This document shows, one piece after another, positions 16,731 to 30,049 of a stretch of DNA of 64,000 nt. This DNA is from Mycobacteriales bacterium (GTDB lineage: Bacteria > Actinomycetota > Actinomycetes > Mycobacteriales > CADCTP01). Under the pieces are notes generated by a model. The model was not told where the DNA came from. It did not search any database and saw only the letters and a program-made list of their open reading frames with translations. A program made the position numbers and the translations under genes. The stretch is from NCBI GenBank assembly GCA_035995165.1, contig DASYKU010000059.1, forward strand, positions 1-64,000. Reading direction: 5' to 3'. The first letter of the stretch is position 1. Every line of letters starts with the position of its first letter.

Positions 16731-17774
16731 CTACACCGCCCGCAGCAACGTCGCGTACAGCGTCAGACCTGGGCCGAAAGCGAGCGCGACCAGATACCGC
16801 CCCGGAGCGACTACGCCGGCCGCCCGCATCCGCTCCAGCACCAGGAGCACGGTGGCGGAGGAGCAGTTGCCGTGATCGCGGAGCACCCCGTACGAGTGCT
16901 CCAGCGCACCGTCCGTGAGCTCCAGCCGGCGCTGCACGACCTCGAGGATCCGCCGCCCGCCCGGGTGCACCGCCCACCCGTCCACGTCGGCCGCGGCGAG
17001 CCCGTGCGCGCCGAGCAGGTCGTCGACGACGCCCCGGACGTGCTTGGCCAGCACCGCCGGCACCCGCGGCGAGAGCCCCATCCGGAAGCCGAGATCGGTC
17101 ACGTCCCAGGTCATGTACTCGGCCGTGCTCACGTCGGTCTGCGCGACCACGTCGACCACCTCGAACCCCGGCCGGGCCGAGGGCTCCAGCACCACCGCGG
17201 CCGCCGCGTCCGCGAACAGCGCGTGCGCCACGACCTGGTCCACGTCCGTGGTCGGCGGCTGGATGTGCAGGCTGGTCAGCTCCAGGCAGAGCAGCACCGA
17301 CGGGCGGTCCCGGGCCGCGGTGAAGTCGGCGACCGTGCCGAGCCCGGGCAGCGCGGCGTAGCAGCCCATGTGCCCGACGAACAGCCGCCGGACCCGGTCG
17401 GACATGCCGAGGTCGCGGGCCAGCCGGATGTCGACGCCGGGGGTCACGTACCCGGTGCAGGAGGCGACCGCGAACAGCCCCACGTCGGCGGCGGCCAGCC
17501 CGGCGTCGGCCAGCGCGGTGGCGACCGCGTCCTTGCCCAGCGGCAGCGCCTCGGCCAGATAGCGCTCCATCCGGGCCGCGGTGCCCCAGCGGGAGACGTC
17601 CTCGTGCACGGGGTTGGCCACGGTGTGCCGGGTCCGGACGCCGGAGCGGGTGAACAGCTGCTCGGCCAGCGGCACGTCCCGGAAGTGCTCGGCGAAGAAC
17701 CCGTCCCAGACCGACTGCTGCGAGTACGCGGCGGGCAGCGCGTGCCCCATCCCGACGATGCGCGCCGTGCTCAC
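16731..17774 (-). CDS. Type III polyketide synthase
   Basis: A 347-residue chalcone/stilbene-synthase-fold enzyme that would extend an acyl-CoA starter with malonyl-CoA and cyclise the product. The catalytic triad is visible: Cys106 in VASCTGYVTPGVDI, His270 in AVHPGGRRI and Asn303 in DHGNCSSATV. The GTG start overlaps the stop of the acyl-CoA dehydrogenase-like gene by 4 bases. It is the last gene of a three-gene coupled operon with a methyltransferase and a flavoprotein. This is the composition of phenolic-lipid (alkylresorcinol or alkylquinone) gene sets. Product and starter unit cannot be predicted from sequence. Confidence 0.92.
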   Translation of the reverse strand: MSTARIVGMGHALPAAYSQQSVWDGFFAEHFRDVPLAEQLFTRSGVRTRHTVANPVHEDVSRWGTAARMERYLAEALPLGKDAVATALADAGLAAADVGLFAVASCTGYVTPGVDIRLARDLGMSDRVRRLFVGHMGCYAALPGLGTVADFTAARDRPSVLLCLELTSLHIQPPTTDVDQVVAHALFADAAAAVVLEPSARPGFEVVDVVAQTDVSTAEYMTWDVTDLGFRMGLSPRVPAVLAKHVRGVVDDLLGAHGLAAADVDGWAVHPGGRRILEVVQRRLELTDGALEHSYGVLRDHGNCSSATVLLVLERMRAAGVVAPGRYLVALAFGPGLTLYATLLRAV

Positions 17775-18961
17775 CAACGCGACACCCCGGTCGCCTCCGG
17801 GTCGAGGCCGAGCGCGGCGGCGCCGAGCCAGTCCGCGCACACGTCCGAGGTGGCCGGCTGCAACGAGCCGCAGCGGGCGTCCCGGTAGATCCGCTCCAGC
17901 GGGGAGCCGCGCCGGGTCGCCGACGTGCCGGCCGCCTCCAGCATCGAGGCCGCGACCTCCATCGCGGTCTCGCCGGCCAGCAGCTTGGCCCGCCAGACCC
18001 AGCGGTTGGTCTCCGGATCGCCCGGCGCGGCGTCGACCCGCCGGGCCGCCTCCAGCACGGTCAGCCGGGCCGCCTCGACCCGGGTCTCGGCCCGGCCGAC
18101 CCTGGCCCGGACCGCCGGCAGGTGGGTCAGGTTGCGCTTCTGCAGGTGCTCGACCGCGGCGGTCACCGCGGACTCGGCCACGCCCACGTACACGGCCGCG
18201 TACGAGGCGACGAGCCACTGCGGCATCACCTGGGCCAGCAGCAGGGTCAGCCCCTCGATCCCGCCGAGCAGCGCGTCCGCGCCGATCTCGACGTCCAGGT
18301 GCAGGTCGTCGCTGCCGGTGGCGCGCATGCCCATCGAGTCCCAGGTCCGCTCGACGGTCAGCCCGTCGCCGGCCGGGACCAGGAAGTGCGACACCTGCGC
18401 CGGGTCCGAACCGGCGCGCTTGGCCGCGACGAGGTAGAGATCGGCGTGCCCGGCCCCGGACACGAACGTCTTCGACCCGGTGATCCGGAACCCCTTCTCC
18501 ACCGGCTCGTACGCGGTGGTGAGCTTCGACAGCCGGCTGCCGGCGCCGCGCTCGCTCATCGCCACCGCGAACAGCGCCCCGGCGGCCGCCCGGCGCAGCG
18601 CCTCGTCCCGCATCGCGAAGTACGACTCCGGCACGCCCAGCGCCCGGGCCACGTCGTCCGGGGTCCCGGCCAGCGCGCCGGTGACCGAGGCGTGCATGTT
18701 GTAGACCAGCGCGGTCGCCCCGGCCCCGGCGCCGAGCGCCATCGCGATCCGGGCGTAGTCGGTGAAGCCGGCCCCGGGACCGCCGAGCCGGGTGGGAACC
18801 ATCAGCCCGAGCAGGCCGGCCGCGCGCAGGTCGTCGAAGTCGGCGGCCGGGAACGTGCCGGCGGCGTCGTGGGCCGCGGCCCGCTCGGCCAGCGCCGGGA
18901 CCAGGCCCCGGGCGGCGGTCAGGGCCGCGCCGGGGTCGGTCAGTGCGGCGGGAACGGTCAC
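17771..18961 (-). CDS. Acyl-CoA dehydrogenase family protein
   Basis: A 396-residue flavoprotein of the acyl-CoA dehydrogenase fold. The N-terminal helical domain (FPAADFDDLRAAGLLGLMVP), the middle beta domain (VAMSERGAGSRLSKL, GFRITGSKTFVSGAGHADLYLV) and the C-terminal helical bundle are all present. The usual catalytic glutamate region is not obvious to me. It could therefore dehydrogenate a starter acyl-CoA or be a flavin-dependent hydroxylase of the polyketide. GTG at 18961 follows GGAGGG and overlaps the methyltransferase stop (GTGA). It is coupled to the polyketide synthase gene downstream. Confidence 0.85.
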   Translation of the reverse strand: MTVPAALTDPGAALTAARGLVPALAERAAAHDAAGTFPAADFDDLRAAGLLGLMVPTRLGGPGAGFTDYARIAMALGAGAGATALVYNMHASVTGALAGTPDDVARALGVPESYFAMRDEALRRAAAGALFAVAMSERGAGSRLSKLTTAYEPVEKGFRITGSKTFVSGAGHADLYLVAAKRAGSDPAQVSHFLVPAGDGLTVERTWDSMGMRATGSDDLHLDVEIGADALLGGIEGLTLLLAQVMPQWLVASYAAVYVGVAESAVTAAVEHLQKRNLTHLPAVRARVGRAETRVEAARLTVLEAARRVDAAPGDPETNRWVWRAKLLAGETAMEVAASMLEAAGTSATRRGSPLERIYRDARCGSLQPATSDVCADWLGAAALGLDPEATGVSRW

Positions 18962-19674
18962 GCGCCCTCCTTGATGCCGTGGCCCTGGAAGAGCACGGCG
19001 GTGGTCCGGACGGGCCGCATCCGCGGCTCCGGGTCGCGGCGGGCCAGCCACCGCAGGGTGCCCAGGATCGGCGGCCGCATGCCGGTCAGCGTCAGCGCGA
19101 CACCGTGCCGGGCCGCCTCGGCGACGAGCTCGGCCCGGTCGACGAACAGGGCCGGGTCGTGGATGCCGGGCGGCGCGCCGCCGGGCAACCGCTCGGCGAT
19201 GTCGACCGCGATCAGCTTGGCCAGCCGGGTGGCCGCGATCGTGTCCAGCACCAGCGTCCCGCCCGGGCGCAGCACCCGGCAGGCCTCGGCCACCGCGGCC
19301 CGCAGGTCCGGGACGTGCTCGAGGATCTCGCCGGCCGAGACCGCGTCGGCGGCCCCGTCCGCGATCGGCAGCCGCTGGACGTCCCCCCGGACGGCGTGGA
19401 CCCCGTGCTCGGCGGCCAGCCGGAGCGAGGTGTCGACCAGGTCGACGCCGACGTGCCGGTAGCCGAGCCGGGCCGCGTGCGGCGCCAGCAGGCCGGCTCC
19501 GCAGCCCATGTCGACCAGCACGGCGCCGGGCCGCGGCGCCGGCGGGATCAGCTCGGCCCGGGCGGCGGCGATCCAGCGCAGCATCGCGAACTTCCCGTAC
19601 GGCTGCCACCACTGGTCGGCCAGGCCTTCGTACTGCCGGACGTCGTTGCGCGGCAGCGCGAGCGTCGGGGACAT
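18958..19674 (-). CDS. Class I SAM-dependent methyltransferase
   Basis: A 238-residue methyltransferase of the UbiG/UbiE type. Motif I is VLVDMGCGAGLLAPHAA near residue 52, followed by VDLVD, a DVQRLP segment, EILEHV and the VLRPGGTLVL strand-turn. It is the first gene of the operon and overlaps the next gene by 4 bases. It probably methylates the polyketide or a quinol derived from it. O- versus C-methylation cannot be told from sequence. Confidence 0.85.
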   Translation of the reverse strand: MSPTLALPRNDVRQYEGLADQWWQPYGKFAMLRWIAAARAELIPPAPRPGAVLVDMGCGAGLLAPHAARLGYRHVGVDLVDTSLRLAAEHGVHAVRGDVQRLPIADGAADAVSAGEILEHVPDLRAAVAEACRVLRPGGTLVLDTIAATRLAKLIAVDIAERLPGGAPPGIHDPALFVDRAELVAEAARHGVALTLTGMRPPILGTLRWLARRDPEPRMRPVRTTAVLFQGHGIKEGA

Positions 19675-19743: not shown

Positions 19744-20226
19744 TCAGGTCCGGCCGTCGGACTCCTGGGCCTTGCGCAGCGTCGGGGTGTGCGGCAGCCA
19801 GTCGGCCAGCTTGGTCGGGAAGCCGTCCGCGGCCAGCATGTCGATCACGTCCGGGTCGTCGTCGACCACGACCGCGACGTCCCGGGTCGTGCGGAGCTTG
19901 CGCAGCTCGTCCCGTTTGGTCAGGCGGGCCGGCCGGAAGTCCCGGTCCGGGCGCATGAGCAGCGGCTCGGCCGGCAGCCCCTGGGCGGCCAGCCAGTCCC
20001 GGGTCAGCCGCCGGGTGCGCTCCGGGCGGCCGGTCAGCCAGAGGACGTCGTGGTCGGCGCCGAGCTCCTGGACCAGCGTGACACCGTCGGCCAGCGGCGG
20101 GTCCTCGCCGGCGGCGAGGAAGAACTCGTCCCAGCGCCGGGGCTTGTCCTGGATGAGGTGCAGGCGGTGGCGCACGTCGGCGACCACCCCGTCGATGTCG
20201 ATCACCGCGAGCGGCCGGGAGTCCAC
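19744..20226 (-). CDS. HAD-superfamily phosphatase, polynucleotide-kinase 3'-phosphatase-like
   Basis: A 160-residue HAD protein with motif I as DIDGVVADVRHRLHL (residues 8-22), the WLTGRPE motif II and a late DDDPDVIDML motif. The layout resembles the phosphatase domain of T4-type polynucleotide kinase, but no kinase domain is attached. GTG at 20226 is chosen so that motif I lies at the N-terminus; the frame upstream runs antisense through the zinc-finger gene. Substrate unknown. Confidence 0.75.
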   Translation of the reverse strand: MDSRPLAVIDIDGVVADVRHRLHLIQDKPRRWDEFFLAAGEDPPLADGVTLVQELGADHDVLWLTGRPERTRRLTRDWLAAQGLPAEPLLMRPDRDFRPARLTKRDELRKLRTTRDVAVVVDDDPDVIDMLAADGFPTKLADWLPHTPTLRKAQESDGRT

Positions 20227-20267: not shown

Positions 20268-20531
20268 TCAGACCAGGATCTGGTCGACGAAGCACCAGCG
20301 CCAGTCCTCGCCCGGCTGGAACGAGCGGATCACCGGGTGGCCGTCGGCGTCGGCGTGCTTGCTGGCGTGCCGCTGCGGCGAGGAGTCGCAGCAGCCGACC
20401 TTGCCGCAGGTCAGGCAGAGCCGCAGGTGGACCCACGAGGTGCCGGCGGCCAGGCACTCCTCGCAGCCCTGGGTGGTGCTCGGGGCCGGCGCGGGGCTGG
20501 GCAGCTCGGCGACGTGCGGGCAGGCGGTCAC
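20268..20531 (-). CDS. UBP-type zinc finger protein
   Basis: An 87-residue single-domain zf-UBP protein. Likely zinc ligands are the early CPH, the CEEC pair, CLTC, CC and the HASKH / GHP histidines. In eukaryotes this fold recognises ubiquitin C-termini; bacterial versions are of unknown function. A GGAGGA precedes the GTG. It is divergent from the Na+/H+ antiporter gene and close to the response-regulator flavoprotein. From memory, bacterial zf-UBP genes often neighbour both of these families, which suggests a link. Confidence 0.88.
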   Translation of the reverse strand: MTACPHVAELPSPAPAPSTTQGCEECLAAGTSWVHLRLCLTCGKVGCCDSSPQRHASKHADADGHPVIRSFQPGEDWRWCFVDQILV

Positions 20532-20674: not shown

Positions 20675-22264
20675 ATGCTGTTCGAGACGATGTTGCTGGT
20701 CGCGGCGGCGGCCGCCGTGGCCGGTGTCGCCCGCCGGTTCACCCTGTCCGCACCGCTGCTGCTGGTGGTGGCCGGCATCGCCGCGTCGTTCATCCCCGGC
20801 GTCGACGACTACCACCTGGAGCCGGAGCTCGTCCTCTACTTCATCCTGCCGCCGCTGTTGTTCGCCGCGGCCTGGCAGAGCTCGGTGATCAACTTCCGGC
20901 AGAACCTGCGGCCGATCGGGCTGCTCTCGGTCGGGCTGGTGTTGTTCACCACGCTCGCGGTCGGCTTCGCCGTGCACGCGGTGCTGCCGGACCTGCCGCT
21001 GGCGGCTGCGTTCGCGCTCGGTGCGATCGTCTCGCCGCCGGACGCGGTCGCCGCCACCGCGGTCGGCCGTACGGTCGGGCTGCCGCGCCGGCTGGTCACG
21101 ATCCTGGCCGGCGAGAGCCTGGTGAACGACGCGACCGGGCTGACCGCGTACCGCGTCGCGGTCGGGGCGGCGGTGGCCGGCGGGTTCTCGATCTGGAAGG
21201 GGATCGCCGAGTTCGCCGTCGCCGCGATCGGCGGGGTCGTCGTCGGGATCGTGCTGGCGGTGGCGGTCGAGTGGCTGCTGCAGTACCTGCACGACCCGGT
21301 GCTGGAGAACACGCTGGTCCTGCTGCTGCCGTTCCTCGCCTTCGCCGCCGCCGAGCAGCTCGGCTGGGCCGGCTACCACGGGTCCGGGGTGCTCGCGGTC
21401 GTCACCGCCGGGCTGTACCTCGGGCACAACTCGCCGCGCCGGCAGACCGCGGCCACCCGGCTGCAGGGCACCGAGGTCTGGCGGGTGATCGAGTTCCTGC
21501 TCGAGTCGGTGGTGTTCGCGCTGATCGGGCTGCAGCTGCCGGCCGTGCTGGACGCCCTGTCCGGGCGGGATCCGGGCACGCTCGTGCTGGCCTCGGCGGT
21601 CGCGCTGGTGACCACGATCGCGGCCCGGTTCGCCTGGATGTACCCGGGGACCTACCTGCCGTTGCTGATCCCGAAGGTGGCCGGGCGGGACACCCGGCCG
21701 CCGTGGACGTACCCGACCGTGCTGGCGTGGGCGGGGATGCGCGGGGTGGTGTCGCTGGCGGCGGCGTTCGGGTTGCCGGAGTCGTTCCCGGAGCGGGACC
21801 TGATCCAGTTCCTCACGTTCGTGGTGGTGGTCGGGACGCTGCTCATCCAGGGCCTGACGCTGCCCAAGCTGATCCGCCGGCTCGGGGTGACCGGGTCGGA
21901 GGAGCAGCAGGACCTGATCCGGGAGGCCGGCGCGCAGCATGCGGCCGCGAACGCGGCGCTGGCCCGGCTCGACCAGGAGCTGGCCAACAACGGCACCGTG
22001 CCCGAGGACGTGGTGTCCCGGCTGCGGGAGAAGGCCGAGATCCGGCAGCTGGGCGCGTGGGAACGGCTCGGCGGCCGCGGTGCGGCGGACGGGTCGGCGA
22101 TGGAGCCGCCGACGGTCTCGTTCCGGCGGCTGCGCCGGGCGATGATCGAGGCCGAGCGCGAGGTCTTCATCGACCTGCGTGACCGCGGTCAGATCGACGA
22201 CGAGGTGCTCCTCCGGGTCCAGCGCGAACTCGACCTCGAGGAATCCATCCTCCAGCGCGAGTGA
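20675..22264 (+). CDS. Na+/H+ antiporter (CPA1 family)
   Basis: A 529-residue cation:proton antiporter with about 12 membrane helices. The NhaP/CPA1 segments LPPLLFAAAWQSS, GAIVSPPDAVAATAV, the ND pair in GESLVNDATGL, and WAGMRGVVSLAAA are present. A hydrophilic C-terminal tail of about 120 residues (from about 410) is predicted to be cytoplasmic and helical. ATG at 20675 has GGAGGAGG upstream. It shares its upstream region with the divergent zf-UBP gene. A paralogue of similar build lies at 48674-50278. Confidence 0.93.
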   Translation: MLFETMLLVAAAAAVAGVARRFTLSAPLLLVVAGIAASFIPGVDDYHLEPELVLYFILPPLLFAAAWQSSVINFRQNLRPIGLLSVGLVLFTTLAVGFAVHAVLPDLPLAAAFALGAIVSPPDAVAATAVGRTVGLPRRLVTILAGESLVNDATGLTAYRVAVGAAVAGGFSIWKGIAEFAVAAIGGVVVGIVLAVAVEWLLQYLHDPVLENTLVLLLPFLAFAAAEQLGWAGYHGSGVLAVVTAGLYLGHNSPRRQTAATRLQGTEVWRVIEFLLESVVFALIGLQLPAVLDALSGRDPGTLVLASAVALVTTIAARFAWMYPGTYLPLLIPKVAGRDTRPPWTYPTVLAWAGMRGVVSLAAAFGLPESFPERDLIQFLTFVVVVGTLLIQGLTLPKLIRRLGVTGSEEQQDLIREAGAQHAAANAALARLDQELANNGTVPEDVVSRLREKAEIRQLGAWERLGGRGAADGSAMEPPTVSFRRLRRAMIEAEREVFIDLRDRGQIDDEVLLRVQRELDLEESILQRE

Positions 22265-22447: not shown

Positions 22448-24130
22448 ATGACTGCTCCCGACACCGGCCGCGTCGCTCGACCGGCGATCCTGACGGTCGA
22501 CGACGACCCCAGCGTGTCCCGCGCGGTCGCCCGTGACCTGCGCCGCAAGTACGGCGAGGGCTACCGCATCGTCCGGGCCGAGTCCGGCCCGCAGGCGCTG
22601 GAGGCGGTGCGGGAGATCAAGCTGCGCGGCGAGCAGGTGGCCGTGCTGCTGGCGGACTACCGGATGCCACAGATGAGCGGCATCGAGTTCCTGGAGCAGG
22701 CGATGGACCTGTTCCCGCTGGCCCGCCGGGTCCTGCTGACGGCGTACGCGGACACCGACGCGGCGATCCAGGCGATCAACGTGGTCGACCTCGACCACTA
22801 CCTGCTCAAGCCCTGGGACCCGCCGGAGGAGAAGCTGTATCCGGTGGTCGACGGGCTGCTGGCGTCCTGGGCCGCGGTGGACCGGCGGCCGGCCCGGGAG
22901 ATCCGGGTCATCGGCCACCGCTGGTCGGCCCGCTCGTTCGAGGTCCGCGACTTCCTGGCCCGCAACTCCGTCCCGTTCCGGTGGTATCTGGCCGACGACG
23001 CCGAGGCGGTCCGGCTGCTGTCCGCGGCCGCCGTCGGCGACGACCGGCTGCCGGTCGTGATCACCGCCGAGGGCGCCGCGATGATCGAGCCGTCCGACGC
23101 CGAGCTCGCCGCCCACGTCGGCCTGGCCACGAACCCCTCCACCGACTTCTACGACCTGGTCGTGGTCGGCGGCGGACCGGCCGGTCTCGGCGCCGCGGTG
23201 TACGGCGGCTCCGAGGGGCTGCGGACGGTGCTGGTCGAGCGGCGCGCCACCGGCGGCCAGGCCGGCACCAGCTCGCGGATCGAGAACTACCTCGGATTCC
23301 CCGACGGCGTGTCCGGCGAGCAGCTGACCGAGCGGGCCCGCCGGCAGGCGCTGAAGTTCGAGGTCGAGATGCTCACCACCCGCGACGTGGTCGGGCTGGA
23401 GCAGCGCGGCAACGCCCGGGTCGTCCGGTTCGAAGACGGCTCGGAGCTGGCCGCGCACACGGTGATCCTGGCGACCGGGGTGTCGTACCGGATGCTGGAG
23501 GCGCCGGGACTGTCGGAGCTGGCCGGCCGGGGCGTCTTCTACGGCGCCGCCACCACCGAGGGCCCGTCCTGCCGCAGCCAGGACGTCTACATCGTCGGCG
23601 GCGCCAACTCCGCCGGCCAGGCCGCCATGTACTTCTCCCGGTACGCGGACAAGGTCACCCTGCTCGTCCGCGGCGGCAGCCTGGACTCCTCGATGTCGCG
23701 CTACCTCATCGACCAGATCGACAAGGTCCCCAACATCGAGGTCCGCACCTGCACCGAGGTCGTCGGCGGCAGCGGCGATGAGCATCTGGAGACGCTGGAG
23801 CTGCGCAACAACGCGAGCGGCAGCACGGAAACAGTCCCGGCGTCCTGGTTGTTCGTCTTCATAGGAGCGGCACCGCGCACCGACTGGCTCGACGGCTGCC
23901 TCGACCGGGACCCCCGGGGCTTCGTGCTCACGGGTCCGGATCTGGTCGTGGAGGGCCGGCGACCGGCCGGCTGGGCGCTGGACCGCGACCCGTACCACCT
24001 GGAGGCCAGCGTGCCCGGCGTGTTCGTGGCCGGCGACGTACGGTCGGACTCGGTGAAGCGGGTCGCGTCCGCGGTCGGCGAGGGCGCGATGGCCGTCACG
24101 CTGGTGCACCGGTACCTGGAGAAGCTGTGA
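22448..24130 (+). CDS. Response regulator fused to a thioredoxin-reductase-like flavoprotein
   Basis: A 560-residue three-part protein. Residues 1-135 are a receiver domain: acidic residues DDD at 18-20, phospho-acceptor Asp70 in LADYRMP, LLTAY, and Lys in LLKPWD. Residues about 140-220 resemble a glutaredoxin/thioredoxin fold without its cysteines (RVIGHRWSARSFEVRDF ... LPVVI). Residues 230-560 are an FAD/NAD(P)H module with GGGPAGLGAA near 240, ATGVSYRML, YIVGGANSAGQAA and AGDVRSD. The redox-active CxxC of true thioredoxin reductase is absent; only one cysteine (about Cys375, in SCRSQD) is nearby. It is coupled by a 4-base overlap to the histidine kinase downstream. It probably links phosphorylation to a flavin redox reaction. 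Confidence 0.9.
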   Translation: MTAPDTGRVARPAILTVDDDPSVSRAVARDLRRKYGEGYRIVRAESGPQALEAVREIKLRGEQVAVLLADYRMPQMSGIEFLEQAMDLFPLARRVLLTAYADTDAAIQAINVVDLDHYLLKPWDPPEEKLYPVVDGLLASWAAVDRRPAREIRVIGHRWSARSFEVRDFLARNSVPFRWYLADDAEAVRLLSAAAVGDDRLPVVITAEGAAMIEPSDAELAAHVGLATNPSTDFYDLVVVGGGPAGLGAAVYGGSEGLRTVLVERRATGGQAGTSSRIENYLGFPDGVSGEQLTERARRQALKFEVEMLTTRDVVGLEQRGNARVVRFEDGSELAAHTVILATGVSYRMLEAPGLSELAGRGVFYGAATTEGPSCRSQDVYIVGGANSAGQAAMYFSRYADKVTLLVRGGSLDSSMSRYLIDQIDKVPNIEVRTCTEVVGGSGDEHLETLELRNNASGSTETVPASWLFVFIGAAPRTDWLDGCLDRDPRGFVLTGPDLVVEGRRPAGWALDRDPYHLEASVPGVFVAGDVRSDSVKRVASAVGEGAMAVTLVHRYLEKL

Positions 24131-25596
24131 CTGAGACGCGCGAGACGCTGGGCCGCGACGAGCTGCGGCGGCTGTTCCTGTTCGAGTCGCTGAGCGATGA
24201 GCAGCTGGACTGGATCTCCGAGCACGGCGAGGTCAGGACGGTGCCGGCCGGCGACGTGGTGGTCGCCGAAGGCGACCCGCCCACCTGCTTCTTCGTGCTG
24301 CTGTCGGGCACGCTCGTGCTGTCCCGGCTGGCCGGGGGCGAGCGGGTGCAGATCAACCGGACCGACCACGTCGGGTCCTACTTCGGCGCCACCCAGTCCT
24401 ACCTGAGCACCGACCGGGCCTCCAAGACGTACGGGGCGACGGTCGAGGCCGCGACCGAGATGCGGATCTTCCAGCTGCCGGCGGACGAGTGGGGTACCCA
24501 GGTCCGCGAGTGGTTCCCGATGGCGATCCACCTGCTCGACGGGATCTTCCTCGGGATGCAGAACAGCCAGCGGCTGGTCAACGAGCGGGAGCGGCTGCTC
24601 GCGCTCGGGTCGCTGTCCGCCGGCCTGACCCACGAGCTGAACAACCCGGCCGCGGCCGCCGTGCGGGCCACCGCCGCGCTGCGCGAGCGGGTCGCCGGGA
24701 TGCGGCACAAGCTGGCCATGCTGGCCGGCGGCGCGATCGCGCCGGCCAACATGCCGGCGCTGGTGAAGCTGCAGGAGGAGGCGGTCGAGCGGGTCGCGAA
24801 GGCGCCGAAGCTCGGCCCGATCGAGGCCAGCGACGCCGAGGACGAGCTCGGTGACTGGCTGGAGGACCACGGCGTCAGCGGCGGCTGGGACCTGGCCCCG
24901 ACGCTGGTCAACGCGGGGCTGGACGTCGAGTGGTTGGCCGAGGCGGTGCAGAAGTGCCCGGGCACGGCCACCGAGGGCGCGATCCGCTGGCTGGCGTACA
25001 CGGTCGAGACCGAGATGCTGATGAACGAGATCGAGGACGCCACCACCCGGGTGTCCACGCTCGTCGGCGCGGCCAAGCAGTACTCGCAGATGGACCGGGC
25101 CCCGTTCCAGGTCGTCGACGTGCACGAGCTGCTCGACTCGACGCTGGTGATGCTGGCCCGCAAGATCGGCGACAAGGTCACGGTGGTCAAGGACTACGAC
25201 CGGACGCTGCCGCCGCTGCCGGCGTACGCGGCCGAGCTCAACCAGGTCTGGACCAACCTCATCGACAACGCGGTGCAGGCGATGGCGGGGGAGGGCACGC
25301 TGACCGTGCGGACCTCCCGCGAGGACGACTGCATCGTCGTCGCCATCGGGGACACCGGTCCGGGCGTGCCGCCGGAGATCGCCGGGCGGATCTTCGAGCC
25401 GTTCTTCACCACCAAGCCGGTCGGCGAGGGTACCGGCCTGGGCCTGGACATCTCCTGGCGGATCGTGGTCAAGAAGCACCACGGCGACATCCAGCTGGAC
25501 TCCGAGCCGGGCGCGACCTGGTTCCTGGTCCGCCTCCCGCTCGCCTCCGACGCCGACATGCCGGACCTGTCGGCCGCCGAGGGCATCGACGACTAG
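24127..25596 (+). CDS. Cyclic-nucleotide-domain sensor histidine kinase
   Basis: A 489-residue soluble histidine kinase. Residues 1-135 form a cNMP-binding-like beta roll (VPAGDVVVAEGDPPTCFFVL). The dimerisation/phospho-acceptor region has His169 in GLTHELNNPAAAA. The ATPase domain has the N box near Asn381 (TNLIDNAVQAM), DTGPG, PFFTTKPVGEGTGLGL. No membrane helix is seen. GTG at 24127 overlaps the response-regulator gene (GTGA), so the two are a cognate pair. A ligand cannot be assigned. Confidence 0.92.
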   Translation: MTETRETLGRDELRRLFLFESLSDEQLDWISEHGEVRTVPAGDVVVAEGDPPTCFFVLLSGTLVLSRLAGGERVQINRTDHVGSYFGATQSYLSTDRASKTYGATVEAATEMRIFQLPADEWGTQVREWFPMAIHLLDGIFLGMQNSQRLVNERERLLALGSLSAGLTHELNNPAAAAVRATAALRERVAGMRHKLAMLAGGAIAPANMPALVKLQEEAVERVAKAPKLGPIEASDAEDELGDWLEDHGVSGGWDLAPTLVNAGLDVEWLAEAVQKCPGTATEGAIRWLAYTVETEMLMNEIEDATTRVSTLVGAAKQYSQMDRAPFQVVDVHELLDSTLVMLARKIGDKVTVVKDYDRTLPPLPAYAAELNQVWTNLIDNAVQAMAGEGTLTVRTSREDDCIVVAIGDTGPGVPPEIAGRIFEPFFTTKPVGEGTGLGLDISWRIVVKKHHGDIQLDSEPGATWFLVRLPLASDADMPDLSAAEGIDD

Positions 25597-25687: not shown

Positions 25688-25882
25688 ATGGGACTCGACG
25701 ACAAGATCGGCAATGCCGCTGACCGTGCGGCCGGACGCGGCAAAGAGGCGGTCGGCGCGGCCACCGACGACGAGGAGATGCGCAACGAGGGTCGCGGCCA
25801 GCAGACCGAGGCGGACGTGAAGGACGCCGGCGAGAAGGTCAAGGACGCCGGCGACAAGGTCAAGGACGCGTTCAAGCGCTGA
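25688..25882 (+). CDS. CsbD-family stress protein
   Basis: A 64-residue, highly charged, Asp/Lys/Gly-rich protein with the CsbD pattern (MGLDDKIGNAADRAAGRGKE, then repeated VKDAGEK / VKDAGDK). CsbD-like proteins are general-stress proteins of unknown activity. A GGGTAG at 25673-25678 resembles a stress-sigma -10 box, but no matching GTTT -35 is seen at the right distance. Confidence 0.9.
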   Translation: MGLDDKIGNAADRAAGRGKEAVGAATDDEEMRNEGRGQQTEADVKDAGEKVKDAGDKVKDAFKR

Positions 25883-25972: not shown

Positions 25973-26380
25973 ATGCCCGCCAAGAAGGACCTGCCGGCGA
26001 CGCTCCAGCGGTCGCCCAAGAAAGCGCAGGAGACGTGGTCGAAGACGCACGACTCGGCCGTCGAGGAGTACGGGGAGGGTGAGCGCGCCCATCGCACCGC
26101 GTTCTCCTCGCTCAAGCACTCGTACGAGAAGGTCGGCGACCACTGGGAGCAGAAGGACGAGAAGGGTCCGTCGGACGCTCAGGCGGCCCGGTCCGGCCGC
26201 GCGTCCCGCAAGTCCCGGCCGACCCCGGGCGGCGTGGACGCCAACGCGTCCAAGGCCCACCTGATGGAGCTGGCGAAGCGCCTGGACGTCCGGGGCCGGT
26301 CCCGGATGACCAAGGACGAGCTCGTCGAGGCCCTCCGGAAGGCGAACAACCGGGAGAGCGCGCGGTCCCTCCGGAAGTGA
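25973..26380 (+). CDS. ChaB-domain protein with C-terminal Rho-N/SAP-like domain
   Basis: A 135-residue protein. The N-terminal half is a ChaB domain (KDLPATLQRSPKKAQETWSK, HRTAFSSLKHSYEKVGDHW). The C-terminal 40 residues (KAHLMELAKRLDVRGRSRM, TKDELVEAL) resemble the Rho N-terminal/SAP-type helical nucleic-acid-binding motif. Such small proteins are abundant in stress regulons of actinobacteria. ATG at 25973 has a GGAGGTGAGG upstream. Function not established. Confidence 0.88.
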   Translation: MPAKKDLPATLQRSPKKAQETWSKTHDSAVEEYGEGERAHRTAFSSLKHSYEKVGDHWEQKDEKGPSDAQAARSGRASRKSRPTPGGVDANASKAHLMELAKRLDVRGRSRMTKDELVEALRKANNRESARSLRK

Positions 26381-26927: not shown

Positions 26928-28562
26928 GTGCGTGTCCTCGGCATCAACGCGATCTACCACGACCCGGCCGCCGCCCTCGTCGTCGACGGCGAGGTCGTCG
27001 CCGCGGCCGAGGAGGAGCGGTTCAGCCGCCGCAAGCACGGCAAGCGGCCGGTGCCGTTCGCGGCCTGGGAGCTGCCGGAGCTGGCCGCGGCCTGGTGCCT
27101 GGAACGGGCCGGGCTGACCGCCGCGGACGTGGACGTCGTGACGTACTCGTTCGACCCGGCGCTGGTCCGCCCGCCGGCCGAGGTCGGGGTCGAGGACCCC
27201 TGGGACTCGCTGCGGACCACGTACGCGCAGCGGGCGCCGCAGTTCCTGGCCACCGCGCTTCCCGGGCTGGACCCGGACGCCGTGCGCTACGTCCCGCACC
27301 ACATCGCCCACGCCGCCTCGGCCGGGTTGGCCGCGCCGCAGCGCGAGTCCGCGGTGCTCGTGCTCGACGGCCGCGGCGAGGCCGTCTCCCACCTCGCCGG
27401 GCGGTACGCGGCCGACGGCACGCTGACCGTCCTGGCCTCCCAGTCGCTGCCGCACTCGCTCGGCCTGCTCTACGAGGACGTCACCGAGCACCTGGGCTTC
27501 CTGCGCTCCTCCGACGAGTACAAGGTGATGGCGCTGGCCTCGTACGGGACGCCGCGGCACCTGCCGCTGCTGCGCGAGGCGATCCGGGCCACCGGCGACG
27601 GCGGCTTCCGGACCGACCCGGTCGCCTGGGACGCGCTGGCCAAGCGCCGGGCCGCGGCCGACGAGTTCACCGCCGAGCACGCCGACCTGGCCGCGAGCGT
27701 GCAGGTCCGCCTGGAGGAGGTGCTGCTGGAGCTGGCGACCTGGCTGCACCGGCAGACCGGGGAGAAGGCGCTGACGATGGCCGGCGGGGTCGCGCTGAAC
27801 TGCGTGGCCAACTCGCGGCTGGCGGCCGAGGGGCCGTACGAGACGGTCTGGGTGCAGCCGGCGGCCGGGGACGCCGGCACCGCGCTCGGCGGCGCGCTGC
27901 ACGTGGCCGCGGCCGCGGGGGAGCGGGCCGAGCCGATGGCCGGCGCCGACCTCGGCCGGGGCTGGACCGACGCCGAGCTCGCGGCCTGGCTGGACACCGC
28001 CCGCTGGCCGTACACGCGACCGGCCGACCTGGCCGGTGAGGTCGCCGACGTGCTGGCCGCGGACGGGGTGGTGGCCTGGTTCGCCGGTCGCGCCGAATAC
28101 GGCCCGCGCGCGCTCGGGCACCGCTCCCTGCTGGCCAACCCCGGCCGGCGGGAGACCCTGACGAAGCTCAACGACGTCAAGGGCCGGGAGCAGTTCCGGC
28201 CGGTGGCGCCGATGATCCGGCTGGACCGGGCGGCGGACGTGTTCGAGGGGCCGCTGCCCTCGCCGTACATGCTGTTCGTGCACCGGGTCCGGGACGAGTG
28301 GCGGGACCGGATCCCGGCCGTCGTGCACGTCGACGGCACGGCCCGGGCCCAGACGGTCGACCCGGAGCGGGAGCCCGGGGTGGCGGCGCTGCTCACCGCG
28401 TTCGAGCGGCGGACCGGGCTGCCCTGCCTGGTGAACACGTCGCTGAACACGGCCGGGCGGCCGATCGTGGACGACCCGCGGGACGCGCTGGAGCTGTTCG
28501 GGTCGGCCCCGGTGGACGTGCTCGTCCTCGGGCCGTACCTGGTCCGGCGGCCGCTCTCGTGA
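26928..28562 (+). CDS. Carbamoyltransferase, NodU/CmcH family
   Basis: A 544-residue O-carbamoyltransferase that would move a carbamoyl group from carbamoyl phosphate, via carbamoyl-adenylate, to a sugar hydroxyl. The Kae1-like domain opens with VLGINAIYHDPAAALV and AAEEERFSRRKHGKR, and HHIAHAASAG supplies metal-binding histidines. DEYKVMALASYG and the C-terminal YrdC-like/NodU segment (GRAEYGPRALGHRSLLANP, FRPVAPM, NTSLNTAGRPIVD) are present. GTG at 26928 follows GGAGG. It is the first gene of a nine-gene overlapping run, so the sugar acceptor is probably made by that operon. Confidence 0.93.
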   Translation: MRVLGINAIYHDPAAALVVDGEVVAAAEEERFSRRKHGKRPVPFAAWELPELAAAWCLERAGLTAADVDVVTYSFDPALVRPPAEVGVEDPWDSLRTTYAQRAPQFLATALPGLDPDAVRYVPHHIAHAASAGLAAPQRESAVLVLDGRGEAVSHLAGRYAADGTLTVLASQSLPHSLGLLYEDVTEHLGFLRSSDEYKVMALASYGTPRHLPLLREAIRATGDGGFRTDPVAWDALAKRRAAADEFTAEHADLAASVQVRLEEVLLELATWLHRQTGEKALTMAGGVALNCVANSRLAAEGPYETVWVQPAAGDAGTALGGALHVAAAAGERAEPMAGADLGRGWTDAELAAWLDTARWPYTRPADLAGEVADVLAADGVVAWFAGRAEYGPRALGHRSLLANPGRRETLTKLNDVKGREQFRPVAPMIRLDRAADVFEGPLPSPYMLFVHRVRDEWRDRIPAVVHVDGTARAQTVDPEREPGVAALLTAFERRTGLPCLVNTSLNTAGRPIVDDPRDALELFGSAPVDVLVLGPYLVRRPLS

Positions 28563-30049
28563 CAGCTTTCTCGGTGGTCGTCCCGACCGTCGGGCGCCCG
28601 TCGCTGCGGGTCCTGCTCGACGCGCTCGCGGCCGGGACCGGGCCGGTTCCCGCGGCGGTGCTGGTGGTGGACGACCGCCGGGTGACCGACCGCGCCCTGG
28701 ACCTGCCGGCCTGGGCGCCGATCCGGGTCGTGCCGGGTACGGCCCGCGGGCCGGCCGCGGCCCGCAACCTCGGCTGGCGGGCGGCGACGACGCCCTGGGT
28801 CGCCTTCCTCGACGACGACGTACGGCCGGGGCCGTCCTGGACGGCGGACCTGGTCCGGGACCTGGCCGGGCTGCCCGCGGCGGTGGCCGGGTCGCAGGGC
28901 CGGCTGCGGGTGCCGCTGCCGGCCGGCCGCCGCCCGACCGACTGGGAGCGGGTGACCGCGGGGCTGGCCGGCGCGGCCTGGGCGACGGCGGACATGGCCT
29001 TCCGGCGCCCGGCGCTGGTCCGGGTCGGCGGCTTCGACGAGCGGTTCCCGCGGGCGTACCGGGAGGACGCCGACCTGGCCCTGCGGCTGCTGGACGCCGG
29101 CTTCACGCTGGTCCGGGGTGCGCGGCAGGTCGAGCACCCGGTCCGGCCGGCCTCGCGCTGGGTGTCCGTACGGACCCAGGCCGGCAACGCAGACGACGCG
29201 CTGCTGCGCCGGCTGCACGGGCGGACCTGGCGGGAGCGGGCCGGTGCCGGCCGCGGGCGGCTGCCCCGGCACGTCATGGTCACCTCGGCCGCGCTCGTCT
29301 CGTTGGTCGGTGTCGTGACACGAAACAGGAAGCTGGCGGTCGGGGCGGGGCTGGCGTGGCTGGCCGGGACGGCGGAGTTCGCCCGGGCCCGGATCGCGCC
29401 CGGGCCCCGGACGCCGGCCGAGGTGGCCACCATGCTGGCGACCTCGGCGGTGATCCCGCCGGTCGCGGTGGCGCACCGGGTCCGGGGCGAGCTCACCGCC
29501 CGGGGGGAGCGGCCGCTGCGCGCGCCGCGGTACGCGGTCCTCTTCGACCGGGACGGCACGCTCGTGCACGACGTCCCGTACAACGGCGACCCGGCGCTGG
29601 TGGAGCCGGTGCCGGGGGCGCTGGCGGCGCTGGACCGGCTGCGGGCCGGCGGGGTGCCGCTCGGGGTGGTGACCAACCAGTCCGGCATCGGCCGCGGGTA
29701 CGTCACCCGCGACCAGGTCGACCTCGTCAACGCGCGGGTCGAGGAGCTGCTCGGGCCGTTCGACACCTGGCAGCTGTGCCCGCACCGGCCGGACGCCGCC
29801 TGCGGGTGCCGCAAGCCGCAGCCGGGGCTGGTGCTGGCCGCGGCGGCCGCGCTCGGCGTGCCGCCGGAGCGGTGCGTGGTGATCGGGGACATCGGCGGGG
29901 ACCTCGGCGCGGCCCGGGCCGCCGGCGCGCGGTCGGTGCTGGTGCCGACCGCGGTGACCCGGCCCGAGGAGGTGGCGGCCGCGCCGGTGGTCGCGGCCGA
30001 TCTCGCGTCCGCGGTGGAGGTCGCCCTGGCGATGGTGGGGCGGTCGTGA
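28559..30049 (+). CDS. Fusion: family 2 glycosyltransferase + GmhB-like HAD phosphatase
   Basis: A 496-residue fusion. Residues 1-215 form a GT-A family 2 domain (VVVPTVGRPSL, PAAARNLGWRAAT, metal-binding FLDDDV with Asp85-87, GGFDERFPRAYREDADLALR). Residues 230-315 are a hydrophobic linker. From about residue 325 comes a HAD-IIIA phosphatase with FDRDGTLV (Asp330/Asp332), VVTNQSGIGRGY, the zinc-type CPHRPDAACGCRKP loop and GDIGGDL. This is the GmhB/HisB pattern for removing the 7-phosphate of heptose 1,7-bisphosphate. GTG at 28559 overlaps the carbamoyltransferase stop. The frame runs continuously through both halves, so the fusion is real as sequenced. Confidence 0.9.
   Translation: MTAFSVVVPTVGRPSLRVLLDALAAGTGPVPAAVLVVDDRRVTDRALDLPAWAPIRVVPGTARGPAAARNLGWRAATTPWVAFLDDDVRPGPSWTADLVRDLAGLPAAVAGSQGRLRVPLPAGRRPTDWERVTAGLAGAAWATADMAFRRPALVRVGGFDERFPRAYREDADLALRLLDAGFTLVRGARQVEHPVRPASRWVSVRTQAGNADDALLRRLHGRTWRERAGAGRGRLPRHVMVTSAALVSLVGVVTRNRKLAVGAGLAWLAGTAEFARARIAPGPRTPAEVATMLATSAVIPPVAVAHRVRGELTARGERPLRAPRYAVLFDRDGTLVHDVPYNGDPALVEPVPGALAALDRLRAGGVPLGVVTNQSGIGRGYVTRDQVDLVNARVEELLGPFDTWQLCPHRPDAACGCRKPQPGLVLAAAAALGVPPERCVVIGDIGGDLGAARAAGARSVLVPTAVTRPEEVAAAPVVAADLASAVEVALAMVGRS

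Follow-up and report, generated by a model that had tools for sequence, protein, structure and literature searches.

A receiver-fused thioredoxin reductase-like flavoprotein without CxxC pairs, its linked histidine kinase, and a zf-UBP zinc finger protein as probable third component

Introduction

A CxxC cysteine pair is the general state of thioredoxin reductases (TrxR) and glutaredoxins (Grx), and AhpF works by a dithiol relay. Fusions of TrxR to the receiver domain (REC) of response regulators are in print: passages of PMC5847659 describe a "Mycobacterium-like" REC-TrxR fusion found in two Heimdallarchaeota. A TrxR-like fold without CxxC occurs in the TrxR-like FNRs, which are real reductases according to the parts of PMC10294844 that concern them. 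Here we compare with such systems a pair of genes in a 64,000-nucleotide stretch of DNA from a Mycobacteriales bacterium (contig DASYKU010000059.1, positions 1 to 64,000; hereafter the window, with features on its forward strand unless marked otherwise). Gene 1 (22448..24130, 560 amino acids [aa]), delineated by open reading frame, Pfam search and structural model, encodes a REC-Grx-like-TrxR-like fusion. Gene 2 (24127..25596, 489 aa, GTG start), delineated by open reading frame and Pfam, encodes a predicted soluble histidine kinase and overlaps the stop of gene 1 by 4 bp. An initial annotation, made from the letters of the sequence, had described this pair and suggested that its output might be a redox reaction or a flavin-dependent binding state instead of transcription.

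Results

By sequence comparison, gene 1 joins a receiver to a body related to the mycoredoxin-TrxR fusion, and all four relay cysteines of that body are lost from it, with S160, S163, A367 and T370 in their places. In the Grx-like middle domain, S160-A-R-S163 (22925..22936) replaces the catalytic CxxC or CxxS of glutaredoxin, where stand-alone relatives have CPDC, and the domain contains no cysteine at all. In the reductase module, A367-A368-T369-T370 (23546..23557) aligns with the CATC of the relatives and E371 replaces their Asp; these positions are taken from alignment with three stand-alone relatives, and other alignments shift the CxxC replacement by one residue. The initial annotation had noted a single cysteine near residue 375. 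C375 (23570..23572) is indeed alone near the lost pair, although the module has three cysteines (375, 435 and 484).

The loss is general among relatives. After removal of six duplicates from 164 rows, our comparison set contained 158 distinct rows, which were assigned to groups by domain score, so that a few labels, such as those of L065 and L033, are approximate. Neither CxxC was kept in any of 149 distinct relatives, comprising 123 receiver-type, 10 degenerate-receiver, 11 cyclic nucleotide (cNMP)-type and 5 unassigned rows. Both pairs were kept in all eight stand-alone mycoredoxin-TrxR relatives (L080, L081 and L175-L180, all from Actinomycetota), whose Grx motif is CPDC in seven and CGDC in L177 and whose reductase motif is CATC. 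The canonical TrxR of the same genome (L003) also keeps its CxxC; it falls in the "none/unclear" group, of which it is the one CxxC row, and was left out of the 149. In a tree rooted at the midpoint only, the cysteine-less fused clade (support, 100/99) lies apart from the stand-alone group (100/97) and canonical TrxR, and since CxxC is the general state of both protein families, we take the direction of change to be cysteine loss. C375 is present in 115 of the 123 receiver-type and 8 of the 11 cNMP-type rows. It does not appear to be indispensable, because it is missing from the other eight receiver-type rows; it is also missing from 8 of the 10 degenerate-receiver rows. Of 396 genomes sampled across the phylum, 97 had matches to gene 1 at an E value of ≤1e-60, and the fusion is no chance feature. 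A fusion subfamily with a degenerate receiver was also observed (L058-L068), in which the phospho-acceptor Asp is missing from most members and no kinase gene is adjacent.

The TrxR-like module (residues 233-560; 23144..24127) retains its cofactor-binding architecture. Pfam places Pyr_redox_2 at residues 235-546 (E = 1.5e-32), and gene 1 scores 221.3 bits against the NCBIfam equivalog TIGR01292, below its thioredoxin-disulfide reductase cut-off of 343.45. The FAD-binding GxGxxG is kept in 121 of the 123 receiver-type rows, and R408 and, in the NAD(P)H region, M416-S417 are kept in all 123; M416-S417 was not found in the stand-alone relatives. The FAD motif is thus conserved, and the NAD(P)H region, as judged from its residues, is conserved but partly remodelled. 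A family-specific insertion before the GD motif (about residues 497-518; 23936..24001), which the stand-alone proteins do not have, contains W509 (121/123), R513 (123/123) and P515. An alignment of 72 rows that extends to several phyla has 40 invariant columns, nearly all of them within this module.

An AlphaFold model of gene 1, built on 68 sequences, had a mean pLDDT of 89.9 and a pTM of 0.72. Its reductase part matched TrxR structures with VIA Z scores of up to 35.7 (3r9u and 5mh4). It superposed on 5mh4, a TrxR labelled as the FR conformation, at 1.8 Å, compared to 7.9 Å for 5mjk, the FO form of the same protein, which weakly suggests that the modelled module sits in the state where NAD(P)H meets the flavin. 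Functional identity as a TrxR was rejected on the residues, given the loss of CxxC from this protein and its relatives.

The middle domain (residues 146-228; 22883..23131) was delineated from the model, a fold search and homology to the Glutaredoxin/mycoredoxin domain of L080. Modelled alone, residues 145-229 adopt a beta-alpha-beta-alpha-beta-beta-alpha order with a pLDDT of 88. The top Foldseek match was mycoredoxin Mrx1 (2lqo), weak by E value (2.5e-3), and VIA-align gave a Z score of 12.2 and a root mean square deviation of 1.7 Å over 76 residues to 3zit, with a Z score of 10.7 to NrdH (1h75). The stand-alone relative L080, which aligns over this stretch, matches Pfam Glutaredoxin at an E value of 1.5e-10 and the mycoredoxin model TIGR02200 at 1.4e-21, below that model's cut-off. 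Model and alignments together identify the domain as a glutaredoxin fold, more exactly of the mycoredoxin/NrdH kind. The initial annotation was therefore right about a cysteine-less glutaredoxin fold, retained FAD and NAD(P)H regions and a reductase module without CxxC, and the loss it had seen in one protein proves to be a property of the family.

The signaling components of the pair are complete. The receiver domain (residues 14-126; 22487..22825; Pfam Response_reg, E = 3e-15) has D18, D19, T98, K121 and the phospho-acceptor D70 (codon at 22655-22657), bearing out its earlier description as complete. The kinase has a HELNNP box with the predicted phospho-acceptor H169 (24631..24633) and, within its HATPase_c domain (residues 369-473; 25231..25545; E = 4e-24), intact N, G1 and G2 motifs, in boxes at 377, 409 and 435; the H, N and G boxes are at least 90% conserved among 99 kinase rows. 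The cNMP_binding-like sensor domain described previously was recovered at residues 37-122 (24235..24492; E = 2e-10; 40.7 bits against a Pfam cut-off of 27.5), and the coordinates, frames and overlap given for the two genes were correct. Domains of this type usually have a phosphate-binding cassette with a Glu and an Arg. Residue inspection found both absent from the kinase of the window (YFGATQSYLSTDRASKTYGAT), and cAMP or cGMP sensing by this kinase is therefore unlikely; distant kinases such as L054-L056 have a GE...R pattern in their cNMP domain. Hydropathy maxima of 1.2 and 1.5 (19-residue window) suggest that the products of genes 1 and 2 are both soluble. A Pfam search found no DNA-binding domain in either gene. 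On that ground transcriptional output of the pair was rejected, and the earlier proposal of a different kind of output is a reasonable one.

Gene neighborhoods were compared, with neighbors called by a simple codon-bias gene caller, across 80 named actinomycete loci carrying 39 genus or group labels; these are the best matches with one receiver and one FAD-domain pattern, a choice that makes them close receiver-type relatives. In 78 of the 80, the kinase gene follows directly on the same strand; in the other two it lies 1.3 and 3.9 kb downstream. From this linkage and the complete motifs we predict phosphotransfer from gene 2 to the receiver of gene 1. Two or three related cNMP-kinases stand in tandem after the receiver-type flavoprotein in L048 and L049, and the genome of the window encodes a second cNMP-kinase (L010). 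Outside Actinomycetota, receiver-type genes lie directly beside genes for ATP-binding proteins on plasmids from Deinococcus aetherius, Caballeronia and Gloeothece, and Nostoc has one such gene about 2.6 kb downstream.

A probable third component is a zf-UBP zinc finger protein of 87 aa (20271..20531, reverse strand), which matches PF02148 at 49.4 bits against a cut-off of 22.7 and is separated from gene 1 by a single gene. In 38 of the 80 named loci (14 labels), a zf-UBP gene comes third, on the same strand, and in two more (Umezawaea and Dactylosporangium) one lies divergently just upstream. Across the 396 genomes, whose counts are not phylogenetically independent, zf-UBP occurs in 69 of 89 genomes with the cysteine-less family, compared to 26 of 307 without it (odds ratio, 37). 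The 89 are the 97 matching genomes minus eight with only CxxC-keeping stand-alone matches, in none of which a zf-UBP match was found; with these eight included, the four counts (both, family only, zf-UBP only, neither) become 69/28/26/273. Collapsed to genera, they are 47/11/17/162 (p = 9e-25). As a control, an unrelated patchy family of the window, Carbam_trans_C, gave a far weaker signal: it was present in 28 of 89 and 40 of 307 genomes (odds ratio with the flavoprotein, 3.1), and its odds ratio with zf-UBP was 4.0. Thirty-two of the 131 zf-UBP matches share a contig with a member of the flavoprotein family no more than 10 kb away.

The association extends to relatives with a different input. 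zf-UBP genes adjoin cNMP-fused flavoprotein relatives, and the genome of the window itself has a cNMP-Grx-TrxR relative (L064) with a zf-UBP gene beside it. In Rhizobium leguminosarum, Agrobacterium and Burkholderia pyrrocinia, zf-UBP is directly beside the flavoprotein; in Variovorax, Deinococcus KNUC1210 and Streptomyces NBC_01558, the flavoprotein was not present in the 10-kb stretch around zf-UBP. A chaperone run, grpE-dnaJ-cbpM-clpB-trxA, ends in zf-UBP and a cNMP-type flavoprotein in Rhodococcus PD04 and Streptomyces angustmyceticus (L169 and L188), and the run of Rhodococcus PD04 also includes dnaK. On the Deinococcus ficus plasmid pDFI2, one coding sequence (L181:3213-5249) combines Na_H_Exchanger, TrkA_N and a C-terminal zf-UBP. 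In the window, the gene between zf-UBP and gene 1 encodes a CPA1 Na+/H+ antiporter (20675..22264). It is not a conserved neighbor, being found in 1 of the 80 named loci (L144; phmmer E ≤ 1e-15), and was rejected as a conserved component; given the Deinococcus ficus fusion, it is a possible target. The chaperone-run and antiporter-fusion associations point to stress physiology and name no target.

Other neighbors shared among loci each occur in few of them, look like lineage synteny and were rejected as components. Downstream of the kinase, the window encodes a CsbD-like stress protein (25688-25879) and then a ChaB plus Rho_N protein (25973-26377), followed at 26928-30046 by a carbamoyltransferase and a glycosyltransferase-HAD phosphatase fusion. 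On the reverse strand, a HAD/PNKP-type phosphatase gene (19747-20226) adjoins zf-UBP, and genes for a chalcone synthase-like type III polyketide synthase, an acyl-CoA dehydrogenase and a methyltransferase (16734-19674) apparently form one operon.

Discussion

Our best reading of these observations is a thiol-free NAD(P)H/flavin module that acts with zf-UBP and whose state is set by a two-component system or by a fused sensor. The soluble kinase would use its cNMP-like domain to sense a small ligand or state, and would then autophosphorylate on H169 and phosphorylate D70 of the receiver, as its motifs predict. Receiver phosphorylation would then gate NAD(P)H-dependent flavin reduction, and the flavin, once reduced, would give electrons to a non-disulfide partner or set the binding state for one. 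The Grx-like domain may serve as the docking surface, with the linked zf-UBP protein as the likeliest partner or adaptor. The input appears to be interchangeable, with the flavoprotein body as the output, because the same body also occurs fused to a cNMP-like domain where no such kinase lies nearby. We put the probability of a gated NAD(P)H:flavin reductase or switch working with zf-UBP at roughly 45%.

Several points weigh against this. Half of the named loci (40 of 80, some with short flanks) have no zf-UBP in the flank, 20 of the 89 genomes with the cysteine-less family have no zf-UBP match, and none was found on seven family-bearing plasmids of other phyla. The existence of the degenerate-receiver subfamily without an adjacent kinase argues that phosphorylation is not essential for the flavoprotein body. 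The basic HRRxxxR motif, which binds the 2'-phosphate of NADPH, is gone from gene 1. The interdomain placement in the model is uncertain at a pTM of 0.72, and the conformation that AlphaFold predicts says little about a resting state.

Alternatively, the flavin/NAD(H) pocket may sense its cofactor without turnover, so that phosphorylation, together with occupancy by NAD(H), fixes a conformation in which a partner such as zf-UBP is bound or released, and no electrons leave the protein. This account draws on the joint loss of both dithiols, the retention of a Grx fold stripped of its catalytic residues, and the sensor-type domains in front (REC, degenerate REC or cNMP-like). Eukaryotic zf-UBP domains are, moreover, binding modules, and the PDB relatives of the zf-UBP protein include HDAC6 and USP5. 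However, the strong conservation around FAD and of M416-S417 fits catalysis at least equally, and we regard a pure binding switch as doubtful. We lean slightly toward turnover because CxxC-less TrxR-like enzymes of known function, the FNRs, are reductases in the relevant parts of PMC10294844. More doubtful still is a fuller version, a widespread signaling module in which the dithiol-stripped redox body is an NAD(H)/flavin switch, read by a phosphorelay or directly by a sensor, that controls zf-UBP as a tail-binding adaptor and, through it, cation/proton antiporters, chaperone-linked substrates or similar targets; response regulators would then have a kind of output based on flavin state, not on DNA binding or thiol exchange.

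The flavoprotein could instead act on the input side or in feedback: through its redox or NAD(H) state it would control the flow of phosphoryl groups on D70 and thereby the kinase, and the real output of the kinase would lie elsewhere. A pair without DNA-binding output and the tandem kinases of L048 and L049 would suit such an arrangement, but the same body is also fused to cNMP-like domains with no such kinase nearby, and we consider it improbable. We give an equally small chance to thiol chemistry persisting through C375, in the manner of one-cysteine flavin peroxidases or CoA-disulfide reductases; the high retention of this residue in receiver-type and cNMP-type rows speaks for it, and its absence from eight of the former and from most degenerate-receiver rows speaks against it. 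Loss of the catalytic cysteines would also be expected of an inactive remnant that is merely a phosphate sink for the kinase. The 40 invariant columns and the retained cofactor motifs point instead to selection on the reductase body, making this very improbable.

A flavin-based switch would directly exemplify the control of a flavoprotein by phosphorylation, would supply a partner for the bacterial ubiquitin-type zinc fingers, an orphan family, and would offer a clean experimental system of three soluble proteins for thiol-free redox signaling. The pair points to signaling by redox cofactors without thiol chemistry. Database names such as thioredoxin-disulfide reductase or generic FAD oxidoreductase clash with the absence of cysteine pairs from all 149 relatives. 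What the initial annotation had observed is confirmed and its interpretation partly supported; it was incomplete, having overlooked zf-UBP as a partner, the direct cNMP-flavoprotein fusion, and the fact that, compared with mycoredoxin-TrxR, both CxxC pairs are lost together.

We found no literature on the combination of a cysteine-less REC-TrxR fusion with zf-UBP in literature searches that covered few subscription papers. A 2011 comparative genomics study of prokaryotic treble-clef and RING domains by Burroughs, Iyer and Aravind reportedly may describe bacterial zf-UBP neighborhoods; the zf-UBP link may thus already be known, and we do not claim priority for it. Like gene 1, AhpF places domains of the Trx fold in front of its TrxR-like module (Foldseek E = 2.6e-32 to 4o5q), whereas no dithiol is left in our protein for a relay of the AhpF kind. 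The TrxR-like FNRs share with it a TrxR fold without CxxC (VIA Z scores of 27.0 to 28.9 to 6gar, 8c3m and 8c16) but have a C-terminal subdomain that stacks on FAD, placed at residues 321-347 in passages of PMC10294844. The model, by contrast, ends at the TrxR terminus, its last residue (560) aligning to residue 322 of the 346-residue chain of FNR1 (6gar). With that subdomain missing, identity as a TrxR-like FNR was considered but rejected; the fold match is lower than to TrxR, and the protein is closer to TrxR. The stand-alone mycoredoxin-TrxR fusions have the same Grx-TrxR order and 37 to 38% identity to it (three aligned), but they carry both CxxC pairs and no input domain, whereas gene 1 has neither pair and a receiver in front. 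The proteins named "Cyclic nucleotide-binding domain-containing thioredoxin-disulfide reductase" at NCBI have the same CxxC-less Grx-like plus TrxR-like body, often with a zf-UBP neighbor, and differ in that their sensor domain is fused directly, where the window has REC and a kinase; judging from its residues, the name "disulfide reductase" is not supported for this form. The REC-TrxR fusions of PMC5847659 combine the same domain pair in one protein, and the passages that describe them do not mention the cysteine loss, Grx-like domain, cNMP-kinase and zf-UBP that are present in the window. Whereas the REC-TrxR fusion is already in print, the joint loss of both CxxC pairs and the zf-UBP company of the cysteine-less form appear, within the literature searched, to be new.

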